45,559 bases of DNA, taken from positions 1 to 45,559 of the IMG/VR virus record IMGVR_UViG_3300021180_000019. One strand, written 5' to 3'. The stretch comes from a virus. Position 1 is the first letter of the stretch, and each line of letters opens with the position of its first letter. Below the pieces are notes generated by a model. That model worked only from the letters and a program-made list of their open reading frames with translations, was not told the origin of the DNA and made no database searches. A program made the translations under genes and the position numbers. Positions 30,759 through 45,402 of the stretch are shown in pieces.

Positions 30759-31330
30759 GCAAACTCGCAGCAGTCCGCACCGGTCAGGCCACCCAGGGCA
30801 TCGGCGCTGTTCCCAATGGAAATGCAGCAGAACGCGCCGCAGCAGCGCAGATTGCAGTGATGGAAGATGATGCGCATGCGTTTGATGCGCAGATGGCCGC
30901 TATTCCTGCTGCCATCAACCCCCGTTCTGCGCACTCTGCCGCAGCGGCGACCGTGACGGCCGCGTGGCTGTCGCTCTCGGCGACCGAGATGGAAGTCCGG
31001 AAGTACTTCCGTTCGGTTCCTGTTCCGAGTGGTCTGGAGGCTCTGGCGAAGATGCGCAAGCAATGCGATCTTGCTGCGGCTGAGTTACAGCAGCGTATGG
31101 ACGACAACAACACAGAGCGCTGTTCAGGCTGCGGAAAAACGCTCGAGGAAGTTCGCAAGACGCAATTCATCATGCAAGGGTCCGAAGTTGACCCGGAGAC
31201 CGGCGTGCCCATGCCGTATCGCTACTGTGGCGTGCAATGCGTGCGCGAGCGGAATCGCGAGAAGATGCTGCCGCCTGAGCTGCGTGATAAGAAGAGGTTC
31301 GACGGCGAAGAGATGGGGGATGTGAAGTGA
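30755..31330 (+). CDS. Hypothetical protein with zinc-binding C-terminal part (191 aa)
   Basis: Ala-rich helical N-terminal half, then C-S-G-C-G-K and C-G-V-Q-C, a likely zinc site, and a charged end. ATGA and GTGA overlaps with neighbours. Translated just ahead of the peptide deformylase; no functional link is known. Confidence 0.82.
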   Translation: MSKLAAVRTGQATQGIGAVPNGNAAERAAAAQIAVMEDDAHAFDAQMAAIPAAINPRSAHSAAAATVTAAWLSLSATEMEVRKYFRSVPVPSGLEALAKMRKQCDLAAAELQQRMDDNNTERCSGCGKTLEEVRKTQFIMQGSEVDPETGVPMPYRYCGVQCVRERNREKMLPPELRDKKRFDGEEMGDVK

Positions 31331-31821
31331 TTGTGGATTACCCCGATCCAATTCTCTTGCGAGAATGCGAGGAGATCGACCCCCTGTCTAAAATATGCAG
31401 GAAGATCGTCGAGTCGTTACGCGTAGACATGCACGCGTATCGTAGGAAAGGCATAGGGTTATCGGCTCCGCAGATTGGTTTATCTTTTCGGATTTTTGTT
31501 ATGGATAACAAATTTCTTGGTGTCAAAGGTTCAAGTGCATTTATCAATCCAAAGATTACGTGGGTCAGTCAAGAGACGGAATGGGAAGACGAAGGGTGTC
31601 TTAGTTTTCCTGCTGCATTTATCGTATCTGTTGCTCGTCCGGTGTCGATAGAAATATCTGCGTTCGATACAAGAGGACGGAGGTTTGAAGAGAAGATGTC
31701 TGGATTGGCTGCACGTTGTTTTCAGCACGAACAAGATCATTTAAACGGGATAAATTTATGGAATTACGCTTCGGATAAAAGGAAAGCGTTGTTCGCCAAA
31801 GATTTGGAGAAAACTGTATGA
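31327..31821 (+). CDS. def: Peptide deformylase
   Basis: Removes the formyl group from N-terminal methionine. All three family motifs are intact: G42-I-G-L-S-A-P-Q49, E89-G-C-L-S93 and Q-H134-E-Q-D-H138, giving the metal ligands Cys91, His134 and His138 and the catalytic Glu135. The length (164) is normal. GTG start in GTGA overlap. Phage deformylases are known from marine phages, where they may help host or phage photosystem and capsid protein turnover; here the target is unknown. Confidence 0.95.
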   Translation: MIVDYPDPILLRECEEIDPLSKICRKIVESLRVDMHAYRRKGIGLSAPQIGLSFRIFVMDNKFLGVKGSSAFINPKITWVSQETEWEDEGCLSFPAAFIVSVARPVSIEISAFDTRGRRFEEKMSGLAARCFQHEQDHLNGINLWNYASDKRKALFAKDLEKTV

Positions 31822-32132: not shown

Positions 32133-32326
32133 CACACAGTATTCTCAATCCGCGAGTCCCTTGCTGCGCGCTGATCTTTCTCGATCCCGCCCACCAGTCG
32201 AATACATATTGCCAGCGCGAGCTGGGCCATCCGGACGAGGCAGTGAAGGGCTTCCCCGGCGGGCACAACATTGTGGATGCGGTTCCCGTGGAGAAGAAAG
32301 GAAACAAAGATGTCGGAAACTTATAA
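32129..32326 (+). CDS. Small hypothetical protein (65 aa)
   Basis: Three cysteines and several histidines (P-C-C-A-L-I-F, Y-C-Q-R-E-L-G-H-P, G-G-H-N) could bind a metal. ATGA overlap upstream; its end overlaps the next gene by 17 bases. Confidence 0.75.
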   Translation: MTHSILNPRVPCCALIFLDPAHQSNTYCQRELGHPDEAVKGFPGGHNIVDAVPVEKKGNKDVGNL

Positions 32327-32615
32327 CACTAAAAGTGCACTTGCTGCGCAAGAGGCTTGTATGGCTGCCTCGCCTATGCCGCGCTACCAATCACATAAGA
32401 CTGTTTCGGCGCTCAAGATCAAGAAGGTACATCGTGATGAATGGGGAATTGGGCTCGTGTTTGACAATCCAGGGTTCATGCTTAGGGCCTTCACCAACGA
32501 TCAATTGAAGGGCAGGCCCGATCCGCAGGATGGCTGGTACATGGTTATTTACAAGGACGGATATATTTCGTTCTCCCCTGCTGCTGAGTTCGAGGAAGGA
32601 TACACGCAGATTTAG
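32310..32615 (+). CDS. Hypothetical protein (101 aa)
   Basis: Start at M-S-E-T-Y-N-T-K with AAAGGA seven bases ahead; the longer frame is out of phase with the gene upstream. Contains W-G-I-G-L-V-F-D-N-P-G-F and W-Y-M-V-I-Y-K-D-G, a beta-rich look. Function unknown. Confidence 0.8.
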   Translation: MSETYNTKSALAAQEACMAASPMPRYQSHKTVSALKIKKVHRDEWGIGLVFDNPGFMLRAFTNDQLKGRPDPQDGWYMVIYKDGYISFSPAAEFEEGYTQI

Positions 32616-34049: not shown

Positions 34050-35861
34050 TTGCCGTTAGATTTGAATCACGTAACTAGGTTCTTTTCTCGGCTCAATATT
34101 CGTGACCGTGATGCGGGCACTCTCATTCCTTTTACACTTCGTCAGCAGCAATTAGAAGTGATAGAGATGGCGAAGGAGCATCTTGCTCGTCGTCGTCGGC
34201 TCTTCATAATATTCAACAAAGCTCGTCGTGTAGGGCTATCAACACTTGCTACTGGTTTTGGGCAGGCTCACTGCATAGCTCATCCCGGTTCTTTGGCTCG
34301 TTGTATCGCGCAGAATGCTGAAGTAGCAGCGGCTAATTTTTCCATGGCGTGCACGTTTCGTGAGGATTGTCGTGAGTTGTATCCAGGTGCGCCAAAGCCA
34401 ACAAAGAAGACATTGATTTGGCCCCACTCCGACGGTCCTGATTCGCAATTCACTCACCATACGGCGGCGACGGTACACGGTCAACGTGGACTGACATCGA
34501 GTTTCTTGCACCTCACAGAAGCGGCCTTCTATCCCTACGAAGGGGCCTTCACTTCATTGCTAAACACGTTAAGTATGGACCCCAATAATGTGTGCATAAT
34601 TGAAAGTACTAGCAACGGAATGGAAGGCCCTGGAGAATCTTACTATCAGTATTGGGAGGCGGCAGTTGCTAAGGAGAACGAGTTCCTTCCTATATTCTTG
34701 CCGTGGTGGGATGACCCGGCATACATTCTTCCAGCCGAGTTAGCTGCCGATGCTCCTCGTGACGAATATGAAAAGTTTTTGATGACAGGAGTCAAACACT
34801 GGCGAACGGGGAAAAGAGTAGAACTTGGAAAGGATCGTATTGCGTGGTTTCGCGATACCTTATCGACCAAATGCGAGGGGATCATTGAGAAGTGGAGAGC
34901 GGAATATCCGGCTACTTCAGAGGAATCATTCATCGCCACCGGCAACCCTGCTTTCACTATTGAGGAGATTCAGTTCGCAGAAAATGCTGTCGTAAAAATT
35001 CCCCCGTTCCGTGGTCGGTGTGTTCTCTCAAACGACCTCAAGCACGGAGAGTTGCAAAAAGGAACGGACGGGCCGCTGGTTGTCTACGAGACGCCTCAAA
35101 AATCTCATCACTATTTTGCGGGCGTAGACTCCGCGCGCGGTGAAGAAAATACGATGGCCCCCGGCGATTACGCTGCCATTGTAGTGTGGAACGCAGAGAC
35201 CGGCGATCTGGCGGCGCGGTACATGTCGCGTGTGTCACCCGAAGAACTCGCGCCTGTTGCCGCAGCCCTTGGCTACTACTTCAATGGTGCGATGCTCAAC
35301 GTCGAACTTAACAACATTGGCTACGTTACCATGCGCGAGCTTCGTGATCGTCTGTACTACCCGAACCAATATATCTGGAAGGGTCGCGACGATCGTGTGG
35401 ATAGATCGAAGCAGGGCGTGGCTTACGGATTTGAAACTTCTGATCGTTATCGAAAAATGATGTTCTCGATGTTTCGTAATTCCCTCTATCGCAAAGAAGT
35501 AGTGCCTAAAGACCAGGTGTTCGTTTCACAGATGAAAAAAGCGAAGATGGAGATGGCCTGGCGATGGAACGTCGCTGTGGGCCACGACGACGTCTTGATG
35601 GCGGGCTTCCTCGGTTGGATCGCCAAAGAACAGAACCATCAGTTCGCGTGCCAACACAGGTCAAGCAAGAACACCATGATGACGAAAGAAGAACTCGAAA
35701 CTGCGGGATTTCAACCTGTACGCGGTCAGATGCCTACCTGGCTGCGCGATCCCTCCGTGACGGGCATGGGTACGTTGATTACAACCGGTAACGATCATCT
35801 CAAGAAGTTGGAAATCTACGCGAAGAAAAAGCAGCGGATGAACAGGTTGGAGTTCATATGA
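34050..35861 (+). CDS. Terminase large subunit (TerL)
   Basis: Packaging motor and headful nuclease, 603 residues. The ATPase half has a deviant Walker A K57-A-R-R-V-G-L-S-T65, Walker B L-H-L-T-E157-A-A-F and coupling motif E-S-T-S-N-G (185-190). The nuclease half shows D360 in F-A-G-V-D-S-A, E419 in L-N-V-E-L, and D513-D514 in G-H-D-D-V. E-E-S-F-I-A-T-G is the usual terminase segment. TTG start with GGAG seven bases ahead. No small subunit is recognised. Confidence 0.95.
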   Translation: MPLDLNHVTRFFSRLNIRDRDAGTLIPFTLRQQQLEVIEMAKEHLARRRRLFIIFNKARRVGLSTLATGFGQAHCIAHPGSLARCIAQNAEVAAANFSMACTFREDCRELYPGAPKPTKKTLIWPHSDGPDSQFTHHTAATVHGQRGLTSSFLHLTEAAFYPYEGAFTSLLNTLSMDPNNVCIIESTSNGMEGPGESYYQYWEAAVAKENEFLPIFLPWWDDPAYILPAELAADAPRDEYEKFLMTGVKHWRTGKRVELGKDRIAWFRDTLSTKCEGIIEKWRAEYPATSEESFIATGNPAFTIEEIQFAENAVVKIPPFRGRCVLSNDLKHGELQKGTDGPLVVYETPQKSHHYFAGVDSARGEENTMAPGDYAAIVVWNAETGDLAARYMSRVSPEELAPVAAALGYYFNGAMLNVELNNIGYVTMRELRDRLYYPNQYIWKGRDDRVDRSKQGVAYGFETSDRYRKMMFSMFRNSLYRKEVVPKDQVFVSQMKKAKMEMAWRWNVAVGHDDVLMAGFLGWIAKEQNHQFACQHRSSKNTMMTKEELETAGFQPVRGQMPTWLRDPSVTGMGTLITTGNDHLKKLEIYAKKKQRMNRLEFI

Positions 35862-36692: not shown

Positions 36693-37810
36693 TTCAAGAT
36701 GATCGAACAGAACAACAACCAACTGATCCTGACCTTTCCGACGGAAGCCTCAGCGACGACCTTCGCAGCTTTCTTGGCAACGCTCCTTCAGAACCCAAGC
36801 CAACAGCCCCCCGCACCCGCCAGCTCCGATCCACCTTCCGAGCACCAGCGTTCAAATCACGTCCTTCTGACGGACGACCGGCTGGAGGCTCTCTCGAGCC
36901 AGCGGGCGCAGGGCCTGACAGCACACCAGCGCCTGCTGCGCGCGCAAAGCACTTTAAGGGATGGCGTACTGCCGTTCTCGAAGCCGGGCCAGCAGGCCCC
37001 GCAACCGACAAACCAGCCCAGTCCGCGGATGCGAGCCCAGCAGGAGGGCGGATTCGCGGACGGCGCCCCGGTCGTCCAAAGAAAGAGCAAGCTGAGGCCG
37101 GCGGCGTCGAAGTTGCCACCAGGCCAATAGAACATGCCATCCCCCTTGGAGTTCGCGTGACGATCACCGACCCGTCGCATCCATGGCACACGTTCGCGGG
37201 AGAGATCATCAGCAACCCGGAGAAGTTTGGTCTCGGATGGTTCGGGCAGCGGATCGTACTGGACGGCAACCATGGAGAGGCTTACGTAAGGCCGGAGCAG
37301 ACGGATTGGAAGCGGAAACCTGGTCGGCCTGCTGCGGTTAAAGCACCAGCCCTCCCCAAAGCCATCCAAAAGCTAGTTCCCAAGTCCGATACATCCGCAC
37401 CTCGCGTCATCGTCCCTACCGAGACCGAGCGCTCCGATGCCCGGCGCTTGTTCCGCGAGATCGGCGAGACGTTCAACAAGAACCGGAAGAAGTCGAAGAC
37501 AGCGGCCTACGCCGCCTTCCGTCACGACCTGATGGCGAATCTCGACACTCTGATCATGGGCGGCGCGATCGATCTGAAAGAAGCGACGACGATCATCACC
37601 AACCTTGAGCAATATACGAAAGAAACGGAAGCGGAATCGACGGAGACCCCGGCGACGATCCTGGGCCGCTGGCTGCGGATGGACGCGGCCGAGGTGGCTG
37701 GGTTGGAGGTGGGTGAGCCTGGTGAGTTAGTTGCGAACGAACCGGACGAGGCTGACGAAGAGGAAGAATCGACCGAAGCTGAGCCGGACGGCGAATCTGT
37801 TTTCTCTTAG
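36689..37810 (+). CDS. Hypothetical protein with AT-hook-like motifs (373 aa)
   Basis: A 373-residue frame from a GTG overlapping the upstream stop. The first 150 residues are disordered, Pro/Ala/Arg-rich, with R-G-R-R-P-G-R-P-K-K like an AT-hook; a second R-K-P-G-R-P follows later. The middle (about 150-210) is a folded beta domain (V-R-V-T-I-T-D-P-S-H-P-W). The end is helical then very acidic. The second half is certainly coding. The first 430 bases also carry another convincing frame (36699-37130). Confidence 0.78.
   Translation: MIQDDRTEQQPTDPDLSDGSLSDDLRSFLGNAPSEPKPTAPRTRQLRSTFRAPAFKSRPSDGRPAGGSLEPAGAGPDSTPAPAARAKHFKGWRTAVLEAGPAGPATDKPAQSADASPAGGRIRGRRPGRPKKEQAEAGGVEVATRPIEHAIPLGVRVTITDPSHPWHTFAGEIISNPEKFGLGWFGQRIVLDGNHGEAYVRPEQTDWKRKPGRPAAVKAPALPKAIQKLVPKSDTSAPRVIVPTETERSDARRLFREIGETFNKNRKKSKTAAYAAFRHDLMANLDTLIMGGAIDLKEATTIITNLEQYTKETEAESTETPATILGRWLRMDAAEVAGLEVGEPGELVANEPDEADEEEESTEAEPDGESVFS
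36699..37130 (+). CDS. Overlapping frame, hypothetical protein (143 aa)
   Basis: ATG 36699 with GAGGAG nine bases ahead. Its N-terminus L-I-L-T-F-P-T-E-A then F-L-A-T-L-L-x-N-P-S-Q resembles the protein at 4990-5520. Codon use looks natural in this frame too. It is nested out of phase inside the 373-residue frame, so it is either a true overprinted gene or the upper half of a frameshift pair. Confidence 0.5.
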   Translation: MIEQNNNQLILTFPTEASATTFAAFLATLLQNPSQQPPAPASSDPPSEHQRSNHVLLTDDRLEALSSQRAQGLTAHQRLLRAQSTLRDGVLPFSKPGQQAPQPTNQPSPRMRAQQEGGFADGAPVVQRKSKLRPAASKLPPGQ

Positions 37811-37876
37811 TGTTATGGCTTAAAACTCCACTCCCTACCCACACATAATATCCTTCCAACCAGCAGAGGGATACGC

Positions 37877-38074
37877 ATGTCTGAGACTGCCCGCGCAAAA
37901 TATCAGGACTCCGGAGCCCCGCCTGAGTTCCGCTCTTCCCTCCCCCAGAATCCGCGCAAGGAATACAATTCCGCTGAAGCTCGTCCTTCAGGGCGCTCCG
38001 GCGGTGGGTCAGTTTCGACGCCTCATCGCGTGTCAAGCTCCCGTAGAGGGAAGAGAAAGTCGGCGCGCGCATGA
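37877..38074 (+). CDS. Small protein with basic C-terminal tail (65 aa)
   Basis: GAGGG precedes the ATG. Disordered, with a closing S-S-R-R-G-K-R-K-S-A-R-A. First in a run of small proteins that end in Arg/Lys-rich tails. ATGA overlap with the next gene. Confidence 0.72.
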   Translation: MSETARAKYQDSGAPPEFRSSLPQNPRKEYNSAEARPSGRSGGGSVSTPHRVSSSRRGKRKSARA

Positions 38075-38379
38075 TGGACGATCCGGAAGTTACAATCGAG
38101 CCCGCCGATAACGGTTACATCGTCAAGCATTATCAGCGATCGACCAAGAAGGACGAGGGCGGTCGCACCATCCGCCGCGTCGCTTCGACCGCTGAAGAAG
38201 CGCTGGGCCACGCAGGCAAGGTGCTCAGCACCAGGGCCGGCAAAAAGAAATCGTCTCGGGATGGGCAAGCTCAAGAAGCGGGGGCGGAGGCTTCATCCCC
38301 CGCTGCCCATTCCTTCGGCGGCCATTCCCGTGGCTCGGCCAAGCGTCGCCGTCCTCGCGTCGGCGGAAGGAGAGCTTGA
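38071..38379 (+). CDS. Hypothetical protein with basic C-terminal tail (102 aa)
   Basis: N-terminal beta region (E-V-T-I-E-P-A-D-N-G-Y-I-V-K-H-Y) and helix, then a disordered tail ending K-R-R-R-P-R-V-G-G-R-R-A. Second of the basic-tail run. Confidence 0.75.
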   Translation: MMDDPEVTIEPADNGYIVKHYQRSTKKDEGGRTIRRVASTAEEALGHAGKVLSTRAGKKKSSRDGQAQEAGAEASSPAAHSFGGHSRGSAKRRRPRVGGRRA

Positions 38380-38382
38380 CCC

Positions 38383-38658
38383 ATGCCACAGGATAATCCC
38401 GCTGCGGACACTCTCCTGGCGATCCCTCGTATGCTGGGCCGGATAGGCAACCGCTACGATCCGCCTGCTCCTGCGCGGGTAGATCCTTCCTGGCACAATG
38501 ATATGGTTCAGCAGGCCAATCGATCGTTTCAGGCGAGACAGGACGCTGAACGGGCTGCTGCTGCTGCAGCAGCAGCGGCAGCGGCGCCTGTGGCTGCGCG
38601 ATCCGCGAAGCGGGTTCCGAAGCGCACTCCAGCGCGACCGGCGGCGAAGCGGAGGTAG
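38383..38658 (+). CDS. Hypothetical protein with poly-Ala and basic tail (91 aa)
   Basis: Starts M-P-Q-D-N-P-A-A, contains a run of more than ten Ala (about residues 61-70), and ends K-R-T-P-A-R-P-A-A-K-R-R. Its composition recalls histone H1 or protamine-like tails. Third of the run. Confidence 0.7.
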   Translation: MPQDNPAADTLLAIPRMLGRIGNRYDPPAPARVDPSWHNDMVQQANRSFQARQDAERAAAAAAAAAAAPVAARSAKRVPKRTPARPAAKRR

Positions 38659-38662
38659 AATC

Positions 38663-38848
38663 GTGCCATGGCGAGCTAGTGACGTTTCGAAGCACAACAA
38701 ATCTGTCAAGTCACCGAAGCGCAAGCGTCAGTGGCGGGATGTGGCCAACAGCATCCTCGAGCGGACAGGCTCGGATTCACGTGCAATTCGCGGCGCAAAC
38801 TCTGTGGTGAAGAAGTCTCAGGCCCGTCGTACCAGAAAGAGGGCGTAA
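38663..38848 (+). CDS. Phage MPW/VANSxLERTG-type basic protein (61 aa)
   Basis: GTG start; M-P-W-R-A-S-D then K-R-Q-W-R-D-V-A-N-S-I-L-E-R-T-G and A-I-R-G-A-N-S, a pattern common in small phage and bacterial proteins of unknown function near structural genes. Ends A-R-R-T-R-K-R-A. Fourth of the basic-tail run. Confidence 0.78.
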   Translation: MPWRASDVSKHNKSVKSPKRKRQWRDVANSILERTGSDSRAIRGANSVVKKSQARRTRKRA

Positions 38849-38850
38849 CC

Positions 38851-39189
38851 ATGATTTCTCGTTTCCGCAAAATCGTTGTTTTCTTCGTTGTAGTTTTGTT
38901 CTGCGCCTTGGCGGCGTGGGCTACGACTCCACGTTTGATCCAGGTCACTCTCGGCACAGGTGCGACGCAAATATCCGCCACGCCCACTTACTTTAACCAG
39001 ATGACCATTCAGAACAATGCCGCGCACAATATCCGATATGGGGACTCTACGGTCTCGTCCAGCAAAGGGATCCTTCTCACTCCCGGTGGCGCCGGCAGCA
39101 CAGGCACGGTCTCTGGGCAACAGGGGGACGCGAGTCAGTTTTACATCGTCGGAACGAGCGGCGACGTAATTGATGTGCTTGTGTGGTAA
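38851..39189 (+). CDS. Secreted-looking beta protein with signal peptide (112 aa)
   Basis: Begins with a textbook signal sequence: basic R-F-R-K, then V-V-F-F-V-V-V-L-F-C-A-L, and an A-W-A cleavage site near residue 24. The mature part is a Ser/Thr/Gly-rich beta domain with T-I-Q-N-N-A-A-H-N-I-R-Y-G-D-S, resembling phage decoration or fibre-associated proteins. A signal peptide is unusual in a head gene cluster. Start set by position after the upstream stop; AGAGGG lies ahead. Confidence 0.8.
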   Translation: MISRFRKIVVFFVVVLFCALAAWATTPRLIQVTLGTGATQISATPTYFNQMTIQNNAAHNIRYGDSTVSSSKGILLTPGGAGSTGTVSGQQGDASQFYIVGTSGDVIDVLVW

Positions 39190-39217
39190 AGGGATGCTAC
39201 GATAGGAGGCGAGTCCA

Positions 39218-39451
39218 ATGGCAACCAAACATAAGTTTGCGCGCGGCGAGTGGAATCCGGTGCATCCGTCCAAAAAAGGTGCGGAGACAGCCAAGGCCAA
39301 GCGTCGTGGAGTTTCTTTGCACCAGCAGGCGGAGAAGGATTCCCACAGCAGCGATCCGAAAGTTCGCGGCCGTGGCGTGTTTGCATTGAATGCTCAGGCA
39401 GGGAAGTTTCACCATCGTGCGACTAAACGACGCAGCCGGTCGCGTGCATAG
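39218..39451 (+). CDS. Small basic protein (77 aa)
   Basis: Basic throughout; ends A-T-K-R-R-S-R-S-R-A. GGAGGCGAGTCCA precedes the ATG. Fifth of the basic-tail run, just before the portal gene. Confidence 0.72.
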   Translation: MATKHKFARGEWNPVHPSKKGAETAKAKRRGVSLHQQAEKDSHSSDPKVRGRGVFALNAQAGKFHHRATKRRSRSRA

Positions 39452-39470
39452 AAAGAAGGGTCGAGATTAG

Positions 39471-41246
39471 ATGGCCAACGTATTCCTGATCTCGAATCCG
39501 TCGCGCAAGTCTGCGAAGCAAGAGTCGATGGACCCTCGCGCTCGGCACATAAATTCTTGGGTAGAAGCTTCTGACTCGGCCCGTAATAAATCGTTGGGTG
39601 AGAACTTCGCTAAGTCTGCAGAAGATCTTTACAATTTATCTGATGCGATGACGCCTGGTCCGGTCTACAGGCCCTCGTTGTCTATCCCGATGCTCCAGCG
39701 GATCATGCTTGAGGAAGCGAATCAAGTAAGCAACCTGTCTCCACGCATGTACGTGTTTCCTTCTGCTGGTTCCTCCGATCCGTCTTACCAAGGTGCGCAG
39801 CAAGCGGATTCTTCTTTTCCCTCATCGTCTGCGCGCGATCTGGCACGTGAGGTCTCTCTCCAAGCGCAGTGGCAGATCAGTAAAATGAATCTTCATCTCT
39901 TGATGGCCGGGCTGACTGCGCGGTACTGCGGAGCTGGTTGGATTGTCGCCGGGTTTGATCCGGACTTGAGTCGGGCGCGCGGCGGGATGTGGGCTCGGTC
40001 GGTCGATCCCCGGTTGATCTTCTTTGATCCAGGCACGGATTACACTTGGAATCCTAGCTACGCCGGCTGGGGAACCTGGATGAATCTCGAGGATGTCCGG
40101 CTGAAGTGGCCGGAGACATCGCGAGCCATTTCGCCGCGGCATACGAGTGGCGGGTTCCAGCCGTTCTCCGGCGATTCAGGCTATGGGATATCGCAGCCGC
40201 CGGGACCGATGAGCAGCATGCCTGGTACTCCCGGTCAGAATGCCAAAACTCAAAGTTCCGAATGGCGTGTCCTCGTTCGCCATTGCTTCTGCCGCGACTA
40301 CACGCGCGAGGCGGTTGAGAAGCCCGATGTGCCGACAACTTCTTTGATCGATCCGGAAGTCAGGCTCAAATATCCGAACGGCCGCTGGCTGGTCGAGTGT
40401 GAGGGCGTGATCCTTCAGGACGGCGACAATCCCTATCCGCCGCGTCGCGACATCACGGCGCCGAGGTTTCCGATCTTCCCGAACTATGTATTGCCTCCTC
40501 TTTTCGGCCCATGGGGAATCCCCGTCACGCGCATGACCGAGAACATGCAGCGGCTGGCGCAGCGATTCTACTCTCAAATTTTCGAGAACGGCCTGCGCAT
40601 GAACAACGCGCTATGGGTCATAGACGAGAATACCGGGATAGATATCGACGGTTTTGGAGGTCTGCCCGGTGAGGTGGTGACGATCAAACCAGGCAGCCGG
40701 CCACCTCAGCCGATCACTCCGTCAGCTATGCCCGCCAGTTCTCTTCAAGGGGCTGAAAAGCTTTTGGCTCTCCAAAATGACGTGCTTGGCTTCTCAGCGT
40801 CCAGACAGGGTGATCCTGGCGCGGGGAATGTGTCGACTGATCTGTTCGATTCCTCTGTTTTGCAGTCGTCGGGATTGTTGCAACTGGCTGGACGGTTTTT
40901 GTCGGAGACGGCAGAATCAGTCGGGACTTTCTTTTTCGACTGCATGTGTCGGTATCAAGACAAATCGACTCTTCCGTATCAAGGCGTAGATAATTTAACT
41001 TTGGCCGCGTGGGCGGGTCAAGTTGATCCGGCCACTTACGATTTAGCTCTGGATCAATCGAGCGTGCGTCCGTTGTCTGAAGCGGTTATTCGCAAATTAA
41101 CTCCGGATTTGATGGGGAAAGGGGTAATCGGAACTGAGCGGGGGCTTAGAGTTTTAGGTTATCCGGATGCGGACAACATTGCACATGATCAGCAAGAGCA
41201 AATGGCTTTGCAAGCTTTAGCAAAAGTGAAATCAGGGCGTAAATAA
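39471..41246 (+). CDS. Portal protein
   Basis: Probable portal: 591 residues, after TerL and before scaffold and capsid. Visible family traits are the N-terminal W-V-E-A-S-D region, V-D-P-R-L-I-F-F-D-P-G-T (typical of portal wing domains), a Pro-rich clip-like stretch and a helical C-terminal region. A dodecameric ring at the capsid vertex is expected. Assigned from length, order and these segments. Confidence 0.82.
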   Translation: MANVFLISNPSRKSAKQESMDPRARHINSWVEASDSARNKSLGENFAKSAEDLYNLSDAMTPGPVYRPSLSIPMLQRIMLEEANQVSNLSPRMYVFPSAGSSDPSYQGAQQADSSFPSSSARDLAREVSLQAQWQISKMNLHLLMAGLTARYCGAGWIVAGFDPDLSRARGGMWARSVDPRLIFFDPGTDYTWNPSYAGWGTWMNLEDVRLKWPETSRAISPRHTSGGFQPFSGDSGYGISQPPGPMSSMPGTPGQNAKTQSSEWRVLVRHCFCRDYTREAVEKPDVPTTSLIDPEVRLKYPNGRWLVECEGVILQDGDNPYPPRRDITAPRFPIFPNYVLPPLFGPWGIPVTRMTENMQRLAQRFYSQIFENGLRMNNALWVIDENTGIDIDGFGGLPGEVVTIKPGSRPPQPITPSAMPASSLQGAEKLLALQNDVLGFSASRQGDPGAGNVSTDLFDSSVLQSSGLLQLAGRFLSETAESVGTFFFDCMCRYQDKSTLPYQGVDNLTLAAWAGQVDPATYDLALDQSSVRPLSEAVIRKLTPDLMGKGVIGTERGLRVLGYPDADNIAHDQQEQMALQALAKVKSGRK

Positions 41247-41479
41247 TGAAAGAGATTGACGCCGCCAAACCTGCTCGCGTGCCTGCAATACCACAGTGCT
41301 CGTGGTCAGGCCACTGGCTGACGATAGTCGAATTTTCAAGGCTGATGGGTAGAAAGCCGCCGACTATTTACGAGTGGATTCGCGAGGGAACTCTAAGCGA
41401 GTTTGGAATAGCCACTTATGAATTTAGATTTGGAAGAAAACACTCGGCCAGGATTTTCGTGCGAAATCCATATCTCTGA
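41246..41479 (+). CDS. Small HTH protein (77 aa)
   Basis: T-I-V-E-F-S-R-L-M-G-R-K-P-P-T-I-Y-E-W-I-R-E-G (about 26-48) is a MerR/excisionase-like helix-turn-helix, followed by a wing-like strand pair. Start overlaps the portal stop (TAATG). Could be a small regulator or DNA-binding morphogenesis factor. Confidence 0.78.
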   Translation: MKEIDAAKPARVPAIPQCSWSGHWLTIVEFSRLMGRKPPTIYEWIREGTLSEFGIATYEFRFGRKHSARIFVRNPYL

Positions 41480-41517
41480 CCGAGTGCTTCACCATGCCAA
41501 GCCGCAATACAGTGTTT

Positions 41518-41802
41518 TTATTTGGTCAGTCCGAACACCTCACACACATTTTCAAGTCGCGTTAGGTAGCCGCGATTGCGTTTATCGGCTTGTTGCGCGA
41601 GTCTGAATTTATGCGCCGGGAAAACTTCAGCAAGATCCAAAATCCCCAATTGAACAAGTCTTAGCGTGTGAAGCCTGGCCGTTCTTTCGGCGATTTTGGC
41701 CGCTTCTGCTACTTCCCGGTTAGTTAGCCACGAAGTAGGAGCGGCAGTGAACACTCTGTAGAGTCGTGCTTCGTGGATGGATATTTCACCTTTTTCTGGC
41801 AT
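41518..41802 (-). CDS. Winged-helix DNA-binding protein (94 aa), minus strand
   Basis: Winged-helix pattern: L-T-N-R-E-V-A-E-A-A-K-I-A-E-R-T-A-R-L-H (about 26-45), then L-V-Q-L-G-I-L-D-L-A. It faces against the head genes and has its own promoter and a GGAG ribosome site. Probably a regulator, perhaps maintained in lysogeny. Confidence 0.82.
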   Translation of the reverse strand: MPEKGEISIHEARLYRVFTAAPTSWLTNREVAEAAKIAERTARLHTLRLVQLGILDLAEVFPAHKFRLAQQADKRNRGYLTRLENVCEVFGLTK

Positions 41803-41819
41803 GGTTTCTCCTTAGCCCT

Positions 41820-41849
41820 ACTATACCGCATCTTGCCAGTTTATGCCTA
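41820..41849 (-). promoter_or_regulatory. Promoter, TAGGCA-N18-TATAGT
   Basis: TATAGT is again of the TANNGT type; TAGGCA matches the -35 consensus at four positions, spacer 18. Gives a leader of about ten bases containing the ribosome site of the winged-helix gene. Confidence 0.6.
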
Positions 41850-41968
41850 ATAAAAATACGAGGTTTAGTGTTATGCCCCTTCTCCCCGTTCGCTTTCTTT
41901 TTCCACTATTCTTTCTCCAATCGCACCCACATCGGCTCAGGCCTCGTTCGTGCGGAAGGAGAAATATC

Positions 41969-42010
41969 ATGGCTCGTCGCAAGGCAAAGAAAGAGCATCG
42001 CCGGAAGTAG
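41969..42010 (+). CDS. Basic micro-peptide (13 aa)
   Basis: ATG with AAGGAG ten bases ahead, reading M-A-R-R-K-A-K-K-E-H-R-R-K and stop. Too short for certainty, but the strong ribosome site and the same basic style as neighbouring micro-genes support it. Confidence 0.45.
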   Translation: MARRKAKKEHRRK

Positions 42011-42068
42011 TTCTTCCGTCGTTTAGCCTCCGTCGTCGCATCAACTCCCGAAAGGAGCCTCAGTCCAG

Positions 42069-42194
42069 ATGGCCGGAACTCCCTCTAAATCAGATCCCCG
42101 CGTCGTCAAAGACTTTGGTCAACCCCGGAAGTTCCTGCGCGACATGCGTGCCAGGGCCGCTAAGAATTCCCGTAAGGGATCGAAGCGGACCTAG
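42069..42194 (+). CDS. Basic micro-protein (41 aa)
   Basis: AAAGGAG lies 15 bases ahead of the ATG. Reads M-A-G-T-P-S-K-S-D-P-R then ends N-S-R-K-G-S-K-R-T. Same Arg/Lys-rich close as the others. Confidence 0.55.
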   Translation: MAGTPSKSDPRVVKDFGQPRKFLRDMRARAAKNSRKGSKRT

Positions 42195-42245
42195 CTCATC
42201 CCGGAGACGGTGCATGCTGTCCTTCGCGCCCCGTCTTCTTAGCCA

Positions 42246-42264
42246 GCAACGGCAAAGCCGTTGC
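42246..42264 (+). other. Perfect hairpin before a micro-gene ribosome site
   Basis: Eight-bp stem GCAACGGC / GCCGTTGC with an AAA loop, no T-run, 13 bases before the AGGAGG of the next micro-gene. May control its translation or RNA stability. Confidence 0.4.
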
Positions 42265-42290
42265 AACCCGGAGCGAAGGAGGTACGCACG

Positions 42291-42347
42291 ATGGCTTCTC
42301 GTGGTGGTAGACGATCCAGGCGTCGGCGCGCCGCCGCTCGCAAGTAG
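42291..42347 (+). CDS. Arg-rich micro-peptide (18 aa)
   Basis: Very strong ribosome site AGGAGGT, then M-A-S-R-G-G-R-R-S-R-R-R-R-A-A-A-R-K and stop. Nine of 18 residues are Arg or Lys, like a miniature protamine. Confidence 0.5.
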   Translation: MASRGGRRSRRRRAAARK

Positions 42348-42511
42348 AGGAAGGAATAACATCTTTCCTCGTTCGGCGGCGAGATGGGATTTGGTGGGGG
42401 ACTAGACCCCATCTTCCCCGTCGAAAGCGTTCGATGCGCAAGACAGGAGGAAGGCCGGAGCCGGGGAAACCCGCTTCGGCTCGACTCCCAACTCAGACTT
42501 TGGAGCAGAAC
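42348..42511. other. Short stretch between micro-genes
   Basis: Contains a GGGG/CCCC hairpin near 42395-42410, an unused AGGAGGA purine run near 42445 and a 43-codon frame (42384-42515) that overlaps the next ATG but has no good ribosome site. An in-frame upstream ATG (42434) could extend the next micro-gene to 48 codons. Nothing is firm. Confidence 0.4.
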
Positions 42512-42580
42512 ATGAAAAGCTGCAAGATCATGAAGATGACCCGGAACGTGGATCGCAGGGTCGGCAAAAAGAGGAAGTAA
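42512..42580 (+). CDS. Basic micro-peptide (22 aa)
   Basis: GGAG six bases before the ATG. Reads M-K-S-C-K-I-M-K-M-T-R-N then ends R-R-V-G-K-K-R-K. Last of the basic micro-genes. Followed by a small CCGGA/TCCGG hairpin with a short T-rich run that might be a weak terminator. Confidence 0.5.
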   Translation: MKSCKIMKMTRNVDRRVGKKRK

Positions 42581-42636: not shown

Positions 42637-42813
42637 ATGGCGAAGATCAAGGAAGCGATGGGTAACACGTTTGACGAAAAGGTGCTTAAGTCGCCTTTGA
42701 CGGTCGGAAGAACAGGCAACGAGCCCGGTCCCGACGTGAACAACAACCCGATCGCTCAGCCCAAGGATCCGCTGGGCCTGATTCCCGAGGGCGGATCGAA
42801 GCCGGGCTGGTAA
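42637..42813 (+). CDS. Small hypothetical protein (58 aa)
   Basis: AAGGAG seven bases ahead. Reads M-A-K-I-K-E-A-M-G-N and a Pro/Gly-rich end (P-E-G-G-S-K-P-G-W). Not basic-tailed, unlike its neighbours upstream. Function unknown. Confidence 0.72.
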   Translation: MAKIKEAMGNTFDEKVLKSPLTVGRTGNEPGPDVNNNPIAQPKDPLGLIPEGGSKPGW

Positions 42814-44415: not shown

Positions 44416-45402
44416 ATGGCCAATAGCGTGGTTGGACTGGGACTAGCATCGCCGCCGGTGCAGCTTTCGAACACTGTCAACGCGATTTCCCAGAAATTTA
44501 TCGTCCCTGTCCTCGGCGACAACGTGTTCAAGCCTTCTCCCGTTTTCTGGGCTCTCACCCGAGAGGGCAAACGGTTTGGCGCCGGCGAACTGATCTTCCC
44601 GGAAATCTACCAGGAAGAGCTCCCCGGTGGCGCGTATTACGGCGACCAGTTGCTTGACACCTCGGTTGTCGATTCCGTGCAGCCGGCGAACCAGCAATGG
44701 AAGCCCTACCGCCAGCCTGTCGTGATTCCGATCACCGACATCATTCTGAACCGCGGCGGCTCGAACAACCTGGACATCATCCGGGCGAAATTCCAGACCG
44801 CATCCGGCAGCTTCCTGCAGAAGCTCTCGCGCGCCTTGTGGCACACCTCGCCGCAGAACACCTCGCTTGACGTGGACGATCTCAACTCGTGGGTCGTGTC
44901 GACCACGAATACGATCGCGGGCATTAATCGTGCGTCCTCGGCGAATGCCTGGTGGCTGGCCGCGACCGCTGTGGCCGGCGGTTCCGCTGCCTTGTCTTCG
45001 GCGACTGCTGAGCCCGGATACCAGTCCGTCACCTGGGGCTATGACGAGCCCGATCTGTTCGTAATGAACCGGACATCGTATGCGGCGTTCAAGAATCAGT
45101 TTGTCGCCAACATCCGATTTGGCCAGGGAATGCAGGATGACGAAGCCTTGCAGGTTGGCTTCCGCAATCACTTCCTGTTCAACAACGCGGTGACGGTTGC
45201 CGATTACTTCGCGACCGCGAATCAGGCCCTGCTGTTGAATTCGAAGTACATCTTCCCGGTCTTTCACGAGGCGGATTATTTCAACGTGGATCCGTTCCTG
45301 AAGCCGTCGAACCAGCGTGTTCTCGTGTCGTGCATGTATCTGACCTGGAATCTGAGCTGCATCTCGCCCAGGATGAACGTGCCCTTCACATCGATCACCT
45401 AA
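44416..45402 (+). CDS. Major capsid protein
   Basis: HK97-fold-type coat protein, 328 residues. Features include P-V-F-W-A-L-T-R-E-G-K-R-F-G-A-G-E-L-I-F-P near residues 41-61, a long central beta region and D-L-F-V-M-N-R-T-S-Y-A-A-F. Order (portal, scaffold, capsid) agrees. AGGAG precedes the ATG. Fold class is inferred from length, order and composition. Confidence 0.85.
   Translation: MANSVVGLGLASPPVQLSNTVNAISQKFIVPVLGDNVFKPSPVFWALTREGKRFGAGELIFPEIYQEELPGGAYYGDQLLDTSVVDSVQPANQQWKPYRQPVVIPITDIILNRGGSNNLDIIRAKFQTASGSFLQKLSRALWHTSPQNTSLDVDDLNSWVVSTTNTIAGINRASSANAWWLAATAVAGGSAALSSATAEPGYQSVTWGYDEPDLFVMNRTSYAAFKNQFVANIRFGQGMQDDEALQVGFRNHFLFNNAVTVADYFATANQALLLNSKYIFPVFHEADYFNVDPFLKPSNQRVLVSCMYLTWNLSCISPRMNVPFTSIT

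Follow-up and report, generated by a model that had tools for sequence, protein, structure and literature searches.

Conserved polybasic micro-genes and a predicted ribosome-site-pairing RNA pseudoknot in the head module of uncultured tailed soil phages

The window, by which we mean the whole 45,559-nucleotide stretch of viral DNA analysed here, comes from an uncultured tailed soil phage family and carries a head module in which nine short frames encode products with Lys/Arg-rich tails (Table 1). The initial annotation had placed nine such frames in the head module, most with good ribosome sites, and had described the run as interrupted by a secreted-looking gene, the portal and two HTH genes. 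All nine are present in the window, and PHROG matches to the terminase, portal and capsid genes confirm the setting. The secreted-looking gene, the portal and one HTH gene stand as interruptions, the second HTH being only a weak minus-strand call, and the ribosome sites are mostly strong, with a weak one at 38071. Net charge per frame ranges from +7 to +15, one copy of all nine amounting to about +92. The products are of two kinds: near-pure polycations of 11-22 aa, and proteins of 41-102 aa in which a K/R tail follows a small core. K+R makes up 45-62% of the residues in the products of 13, 18 and 22 aa (net +7 to +9).

Table 1. Positions of genes and predicted RNA elements in and around the head module of the window
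Feature	Position	Strand	Description
Terminase gene	34050-35861		PHROG 2, E 2e-19
A1, 65 aa	37877-38074	+	core motif ARPSGRSGGG..STPHR, basic tail RRGKRKSARA
A2, 102 aa	38071-38379	+	N-terminal beta-beta-beta-alpha domain, variable linker, tail RRRRPRxGGRR
A3, 91 aa	38383-38658	+	tail KRTPARPAAKRR; 28 loci
A4, 61 aa	38663-38848	+	GTG start; three predicted helices, basic C-terminal end
Secreted-looking gene	38851-39189
A5, 77 aa	39218-39451	+	tail KRRSRSRA; 5 loci
Portal protein	39471-41246	+	PHROG 156, E 8e-9; C-terminus KVKSGRK
HTH gene	41246-41479		HTH_17, E 2e-5, slightly below its cut-off
Second 'HTH'	41518-41802	-	weak call
Probable SD-masking hairpin of M6	41912-41964	+	UUUCUCC 41912-41918 pairs GGAGAAA 41958-41964; inner helix CGCAC/GUGCG
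M6, 13 aa	41969-42010	+	MARRKAKKEHRRK
A7, 41 aa	42069-42194	+	core VVKDFGQPRKFLRDMRA, basic tail
Predicted RNA pseudoknot	42202-42279	+	stem 42203-42210/42231-42238; loop CCUUCGC 42221-42227 pairs GCGAAGG 42273-42279
M8, 18 aa	42291-42347	+	MASRGGRRSRRRRAAARK; SD AAGGAGGT
Further conserved RNA-like element, in the M8-M9 gap	42372-42447	+	23 distinct copies
M9, 22 aa	42512-42580	+	MKSCKIMKMTRNVDRRVGKKRK
S10, 58 aa	42637-42813	+	near-neutral, conserved head-module gene; LKSPLTVGR..NEPGPDV..NP
Major capsid (major head) protein	44416-45402	+	PHROG 9953, E 2e-23

Lack of conservation in relatives had been named as one finding that would refute the proposal. Among 73 IMG/VR relatives both the gene order, shared by up to 62 of the 73 loci, and the strong ribosome sites are kept, and the synteny of the basic genes extends to phages with as little as 39% portal identity and to distant ones reached with S10 as a marker gene. 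A1 was found by tblastn in 46 of these loci (pN/pS 0.36), and an A1-type GRSGKG gene with an RHRRRY-type tail lies 5' of the portal in the distant phages L079, L116, L129, L130 and L136. Alignment of the A2 family shows its tail to be kept though the linker varies in length; the AlphaFold2 model has a pLDDT of about 82-92 over residues 11-50 and a disordered tail. A4, for which a family alignment was also made, occurs in 48 loci (pN/pS 0.34, pLDDT 88) and A7 in 62 of the 73 (pN/pS 0.53), while M6 carries an AAGGA or AAGGAG Shine-Dalgarno (SD) in 60 of 62 relatives (pN/pS 0.42). M8 (pN/pS 0.36) is recognisable despite distant portals in L110, L113, L115, L122 and L128, M9 has a pN/pS of 0.41 (53 family members), and an 11-codon version of M6 (MARRKRHSKRK) is retained in phages at only 39% portal identity. 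A3 and A5 are patchy, some relatives being without some members, which is compatible with a bulk-charge role and likewise with accessory roles. In some relatives A5 is swapped for a DUF6582-like basic protein, whose scores against PF20223 in L009 and L054 (26.9 and 22.0 bits) do not reach the cut-off of 27.3; the A5 of the window has no match to this family. The Tunturi phages of Acidobacteriota, considered as kin through these replacements, were rejected on their different gene order.

Could such frames be spurious products of GC-rich DNA, or by-products of overlap with the ribosome site of the following gene? The tail codons of the tightly packed genes at 38071, 38383 and 38663 do in part form the next gene's SD (GGCGGAAGGAGA, for example, encodes GGRR, and the SD of the gene after A3 lies within the codons of the A3 tail). 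As a sole origin of the tails this overlap is ruled out because five of the nine contain no such SD, and it offers no explanation for the genes, the micro-genes among them, that are followed by gaps of 56-164 nt. Chance fares no better: the 8 kb upstream of the capsid gene holds six basic-tailed ORFs with an SD by strict definition, against a mean of 0.13 and a maximum of 2 in 100 order-2 Markov sequences, and both the excess and the clustering upstream of the capsid gene are shared by the window with ten long relatives. K/R enrichment of the micro-genes is specific to the coding frame (0.60 for the 13-aa family, whose other two frames reach 0.25 and 0.19), and pN/pS spans 0.34-0.53 across the measured basic families. 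Together with the conservation these results rule out spurious ORFs, leaving this reading hardly any credit, and comparative evidence of this kind identifies the basic frames as protein-coding and subject to purifying selection. Conserved small genes have reportedly been predicted in phages in large numbers (Fremin et al. in 2022); those of 11-20 codons described here are among the smallest with comparably clear comparative support.

Comparison of relatives further indicates that M8 is preceded by an RNA pseudoknot whose 7-nt loop pairs with the M8 SD, which the 3' arm (GCGAAGG, 42273-42279) overlaps. The stem shows compensatory changes at seven of seven pairs in each of two sequence sets, with covariation scores of 0.58 against 0.12 and 0.54 against 0.17 for shuffled sets (0/500 each). 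The 7-bp loop:SD complement is found in 48 of 48 instances, a figure largely imposed by the detector pattern; the mean helix is 7.33 against 4.47 when the arms are re-dealt and offsets re-optimised (0/2000). L115 and L122 carry a compensatory change from CCUUCGC:GCGAAGG to CUUUCGC:GCGAAAG, and since this is the only covarying position the stem is better supported than the pseudoknot helix. An upstream SD complement precedes 97% of M8 genes against 31% after shuffling, the controls S10, scaffold, portal and capsid lying near or below their shuffled values. Minimum-energy folding gave no significant z-score for the class II and short class I RNAs, so that the evidence for the RNA is comparative rather than thermodynamic. 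In a motif scan of 2.9 million viral contigs, 44 of the 45 matches lay directly 5' of a polybasic ORF of 15-20 aa.

Known RNA families were rejected as the identity of the pseudoknot, Rfam giving no match at the gathering threshold and only a chance match of E 4.7, as was a tmRNA or tRNA-like RNA around M8 (ARAGORN, 0 genes in the window). In the autoregulation of S15 and L20 and in the preQ1-II riboswitch, a pseudoknot or hairpin likewise includes the ribosome-binding site, and the S15 and L20 gene products are small basic RNA-binding proteins; the M8 element differs from these in sequence, in fold and in belonging to a phage head operon. We suggest a previously undescribed RNA structure that may regulate M8 translation, a candidate new family of cis-regulators tied to one gene class.

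A second sequence class with the same architecture as the M8 element occurs 5' of 11-13 aa genes. M6 is probably preceded by an SD-masking hairpin, with a z-score of -3.8, no more than two compensatory pairs in the consensus fold and an upstream SD complement of at least 6 nt in 75% of relatives against 46% after shuffling. The element between M8 and M9 has a consensus fold of -21.7 kcal/mol and two compensatory pairs, and is confined to the clade of the window. SD masking is not general in the module: it is moderate for M6, and neither the S10, scaffold, portal and capsid genes nor the majority of the larger basic genes showed it.

The usual DNA neutralisers in tailed phages are polyamines and Mg2+. 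What the comparative genomics suggests here is a protamine-like handling of packaged DNA for which tailed phages offer no known precedent, with DNA binding and presence in the virion as its predictions. Synthesised late, the cationic proteins would attach to the backbone charge of phage DNA (or of DNA and RNA) and accompany the DNA into the prohead or packaged head. There they would neutralise or condense it, much like the protamine-like core proteins of eukaryotic dsDNA viruses. The masking RNA would fix dose and timing, a weaker inference, either by opening once ribosomes complete the adjacent A7 gene, whose stop lies 8 nt 5' of the pseudoknot stem in the window, or through feedback, in which cationic peptide left free once the DNA is saturated would bind the mRNA that encodes it. 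We give this proposal an even chance of being right. Should the head contain these proteins, protamine-like neutralisation of the genome would operate in tailed phages, long thought reliant on polyamines and metal ions, with direct consequences for the capacity of the head, for ejection and for the pressure of packaging. A bolder version, which we consider doubtful, is that the lineage packages its genome with a dedicated, multi-gene set of protamine-like micro-proteins, several of 11-20 residues. In this version pseudoknots that mask the ribosome site would determine how much peptide is made, unbound peptide would act back on the mRNA encoding it, and larger genomes, housed in an almost identical capsid, would use more such genes. 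Cationic genes are fewer in relatives of about 55 kb than in those of about 75 kb; these are two clades of uncertified genome completeness, and the link between genome size and gene number is only suggestive.

Tiny basic proteins made with capsid genes have a phage precedent in the J protein of phiX174-type Microviridae; that is an ssDNA phage with one such gene and another capsid type, and the likeness is one of description. Among dsDNA viruses, baculovirus P6.9, adenovirus VII and X/mu and ascovirus P64 are, as here, very small or tail-borne R/K-rich proteins, and the basic domains of P64 indicate that short basic peptides suffice for DNA binding (PMC6163548). The present cluster differs from these core proteins in belonging to a tailed phage with terminase-driven packaging and in having several separate micro-genes where they have one; a sequence relation to them was not found.

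DNA binding and RNA binding are not separable from composition alone. The micro-proteins might instead act on late phage mRNA, the pseudoknot being one target, as arginine-rich RNA-binding regulators akin to autoregulating ribosomal proteins or lambda N-type ARM peptides. The close tie between a structured RNA and the polybasic micro-gene, loop letters (GCUG..GCGCC) nearly invariant beyond what pairing requires, and the weak fold similarity of the A2 core to ribosome-associated factor Y (E 0.07) all point that way. The basic proteins, however, number up to nine and have unrelated cores, more than a regulatory circuit needs, the genes sit among structural genes, and the exact-pattern scan placed no copy of the motif before other genes; we judge such regulators unlikely. 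It is somewhat less probable that the proteins are assembly cofactors or cargo whose tails carry them into the prohead or bind the scaffold, DNA neutralisation being incidental. Differing conserved cores with a similar kind of C-terminal tail would fit delivery, and T4 internal proteins IPI-III are small head proteins packaged with DNA, about 360 copies each, IPII and IPIII by way of a targeting sequence of some 10 aa; yet that tag is N-terminal and cleaved, the cores are well folded, and the accessible part of the source describes no polycationic C-terminal tail (PMC9958956). Searching the module identified no protease gene, and in the 11-22 aa products there is hardly any core, if any, that a tail could deliver.

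Less probable again is that the tiny frames serve as uORFs encoding leader peptides, ribosome slowing on polybasic codons tuning translation of the downstream head genes. They have 11-20 codons and very strong SDs, lie 5' of S10 and the scaffold and capsid genes, and are conserved more in composition than in exact sequence, as leaders might be; the 56-164 nt spacing and the selection at the protein level count against this, M8 is the gated gene and not the gate, and the larger K/R-tailed proteins would need a separate explanation.

The impression that this is not a standard module is upheld by searches with the larger basic genes, which gave weak matches only and no Pfam, PHROG or NCBIfam assignment; the 13 and 18 aa products are too short for such searches. 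Fold searches with A4 and A2 returned no significant match, and the literature, covered in part, describes no such cluster for tailed phages. No convincing homologue of the portal, S10, A1 (consensus), A2 or A7 was found in isolated phages, nor did an isolate or a virion proteome of this group turn up. Acidobacteriota of peat or tundra are the best guess at hosts. The M8 RNA motif is absent from 396 Acidobacteriota genomes; one distant prophage-like capsid there has a 21-aa polybasic frame nearby, too thin a case to count. The annotated head module of Myxococcus phage Mx9, to whose capsid that of the window has only 26% identity, holds no comparable run of basic genes, and a consensus A4 query gave a single marginal match, in MetMV (E 8e-3).

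All nine frames with Lys/Arg-rich tails that the initial annotation had placed in this head module were found in position in the window, a single IMG/VR virus record of 45,559 bases, with two refinements: the start of the 61-aa frame A4, a GTG with the Shine-Dalgarno (SD) sequence GGAGGT, and the limits of the 13-aa frame M6. Profile matches to terminase, portal and major head protein bear out the setting. Requiring a good SD, a length of 10-130 codons and five or more Lys/Arg among the last 12 residues, a strict scan returned six frames in the 8 kb preceding the capsid gene, against a mean of 0.13 and a maximum of two in 100 order-2 Markov control runs, with a like excess, mostly at the same position, in four relatives of ~75-78 kb and six of ~55-58 kb. 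The scan is conservative: it passes over A1, A2 and M9, and at the 13-aa gene of the window it selects a frame that is longer. The observation of nine frames is confirmed, and the interpretation offered with it is supported in part and extended.

Features of the window and their positions
Feature	Position	Strand
Peptide deformylase	31327-31821	
TTAGTGTTA copy	32324-32332	-
Outer frame, 373 aa	36689-37810	
Inner frame, 143 aa	36699-37130	
RPGRPKK	37064-37084	
KPGRPAA	37316-37336	
TTAGTGTTA copy	37807-37815	+
A1, 65 aa	37877-38074	
Tightly packed stretch	38071-38848	
A2, 102 aa	38071-38379	
A3, 91 aa	38383-38658	
A4, 61 aa (GTG start at 38663)	38663-38848	
A5, 77 aa	39218-39451	
TTAGTGTTA copy	41865-41873	+
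M6, 13 aa	41969-42010	
A7, 41 aa	42069-42194	
M8, 18 aa	42291-42347	
Element between M8 and M9	42372-42447	
M9, 22 aa	42512-42580	
S10, 58 aa, near-neutral	42637-42813	

Conservation, the check that had been proposed for these frames, was examined in 73 relatives from a portal search of IMG/VR (portal identity mostly 80-90%, a few 55-62%; a wider search reached 39%), and nearly all of those whose sequence covers the region have the small frames in the same order. The hardest case is M6, because its family is beyond any sequence search; when the stretch separating the HTH gene from the 41-aa gene was searched only for starts preceded by a good SD, 60 of 62 relatives proved to have a polybasic frame of 12-26 aa there, in every case behind AAGGA or AAGGAG at a distance of 5-9 nt, and in L065, one of the two exceptional loci, MRHSKKAAHRISKRK is still there with a weaker SD. 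Frame and charge of the basic genes survive indels between relatives. With S10 as probe, still more distant phages were reached, which carry a polybasic frame of 11-28 aa upstream of S10 (e.g. MARRKRHSKRK), in many a second of RGGRR type, and usually a further basic frame right after S10. The latter, directly 3' of S10, encodes a protein of 30-62 aa (e.g. ...APRRTKRW, ...GRRGGVRS; loci L065, L067, L078, L110, L113, L120, L122, L123, L128-L130, L133 and L135-L137), and genomes G008, G009 and G011 have another, of 26-37 aa, 1.4-2.1 kb past the capsid gene start. Basic genes recur again and again in this head module.

Pooled pN/pS is 0.34-0.53 for A1, A2, A4, M6, A7, M8 and M9, against 0.27 for S10, and net charge is narrowly bounded (M6 +6 to +10, M8 +8 to +9). 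The Lys+Arg share is 0.60 in the coding frame of M6 versus 0.25 and 0.19 in the other frames, and 0.50 versus 0.02 and 0.22 for M8, so that the basic content belongs to the coding frame; the contrast is reversed in S10 and small in A1 and A2, where only the tail is basic. A2 consists of a folded core of ~50 residues, a linker of varying length and a near-constant tail, RRRRPRxGGRR; its core gave only a weak fold match, to ribosome-associated factor Y, and the three helices predicted with high confidence for A4 matched none of the solved folds. In the tightly packed stretch the final codons of A2, A3 and A4 include the following gene's SD (GGAAGGAGA, GGAGGT and AAAGAGGG), an overlap that may favour Arg, Lys and Gly at the extreme end of these tails; as the cause of the tails in A5, M6, A7, M8 and M9 it is ruled out, the next SD lying beyond the stop codon. 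The basic frames are almost certainly real genes.

DNA alignment around M8 revealed strongly conserved blocks in the non-coding flanks. Upstream of M8, in all relatives examined, the most distant included, lies a hairpin with a closing stem of 7-8 bp and, at 9-10 nt from this stem, a segment that hardly varies, GCUGGCCUUCGCGCC; the SD of M8, GCGAAGGAGG, follows 17-92 nt beyond. The stem differs wholly between lineages and is still paired (GGAGACG/CGUCUCC, GGAGAGU/ACUCUCC, GGGAGUG/CACUCCC, ACCGCUG/CAGCGGU, GUCAGGGA/UCCCUGAC, CAUCUCAG/CUGAGAUG and others). In two alignments that spliced the hairpin to the SD segment, with rows split by stem offset, all seven stem pairs changed on both sides, covariation scored 0.58 and 0.54 (shuffled, 0.12 and 0.17), and it was lost when the partners were slid by 1-3 columns. 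Since arm offsets had been picked for maximal pairing, the optimisation was rerun with 3' sides re-dealt between lineages; the mean helix was 7.33 as observed, a value reached by none of 2000 re-dealt sets, whose average was 4.47. Covariation says little about the loop:SD helix, most of which is invariant, though loci L115 and L122 have CUUUCGC opposite GCGAAAG instead of CCUUCGC:GCGAAGG. With no motif definition used, the upstream sequence contains a stretch of 6 nt or more complementary to the SD in 97% of M8 genes versus 31% of shuffles, with little or no excess for S10, scaffold, portal, capsid and most larger basic genes. We regard this RNA element as very probably real; it would function like SD-sequestering pseudoknots, yet it falls outside every Rfam family, and neither ARAGORN nor Rfam recognised it.

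An exact-pattern scan for loop plus SD in 2.9 million viral contigs, blind to downstream sequence, matched 45 stretches, of which 44 directly precede a frame of 15-20 aa with at least 45% Lys/Arg/His, the remaining one being of chance type. The micro-gene behind the M8-type element is, in some lineages, of the other type (MARKHKRGGHRKHRGRK, MARRHKRGGRRHRRK). A second class (L079, L116, L125, L129, L130, L136, L203), with another stem and loop before a gene of 11-13 aa, in which CUUCUCUC pairs with GAGAGGAG (one G-U pair; a looser match in L116 and L130), appears, from inspection of few sequences, to be the same architecture rebuilt in other letters. In the window's own clade the SD of M6 is buried in an ordinary hairpin (UUUCUCC/GGAGAAA, z -3.8), with weaker comparative support. 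Between M8 and M9 that clade also keeps an element of 57-81 nt (UUCGGCGG...GGUGGGGGACUAG...CCGCCGAAAGCGUUCGAUGCGCAAGACAGG), which is predicted to fold into several hairpins and hardly varies at its 3' end. It shows two compensatory pairs only, and Rfam gave no match.

At the level of sequence, then, the head module is shown to hold strongly basic real genes, at least one under an apparently SD-masking RNA. The products would bind DNA through charge and act in the head; such a DNA-neutralising role, which the initial annotation had raised, we put forward tentatively. A folded domain is not needed for short basic peptides to bind DNA (PMC6163548), and T4 packs ~360 copies of each internal protein (PMC9958956). 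One copy of each of the nine carries ~+92, and a 76 kb genome has ~152,000 phosphates; by our own arithmetic, with copy number assumed, a considerable part of that charge would be balanced if each protein were present in some hundreds to a thousand copies. The ~75-78 kb clade has roughly twice the cationic genes of the ~55-58 kb clade (whose capsid protein shares 74-77% identity with that of the window), on contigs classed as linear and without completeness estimate, which fits a charge-balancing role, from two clades only. SD masking might set either the amount of product or its timing. The M8 stem follows the stop codon of the 41-aa gene by 8 nt and could be opened by ribosomes terminating there. 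Alternatively, free peptide could bind the masking RNA, but such autoregulation seems unlikely. If DNA neutralisation is right, the basic proteins would act as protamine-like viral core proteins do; they are not filed among them, because homology is absent and membership is defined by biochemical features.

Isolated phages include no close relative: a search of 50,697 phage records gave no match to portal, S10, A1 (consensus), A2 or A7, and the capsid protein shares 26% identity with that of Myxococcus phage Mx9. A host in Acidobacteriota is suggested by a single MAG contig, L076, the sole host clue, which carries A1, A2, A4 and the portal. Another acidobacterial genome contig, L213, has a distant prophage-like capsid gene (E 5e-25) and, ~0.9 kb from it on the same strand, a 21-aa frame with an SD, MAQASTRARRTRPRTRKQRHR, which may be chance.

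Ahead of A1, two frames with starts 10 nt apart overlap by ~430 nt, both open in the relatives listed; pN/pS in the overlap is 0.59 for the inner and 1.18 for the outer frame, and the pair represents either conserved overlapping genes or a programmed frameshift before the outer frame's conserved C-terminal part. The 373-aa frame, without a Pfam match, has two AT-hook-like motifs, a DNA-binding feature beside the basic cluster, of which RPGRPKK falls in the overlap, where translation of this frame is uncertain. TTAGTGTTA occurs three times against 0.07 expected, two copies standing just ahead of the two basic-gene blocks, and TTAGTGTTRT recurs ahead of M6 in relatives; a late promoter element is possible. 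The window also encodes a peptide deformylase (PHROG 2890, E 2e-30).
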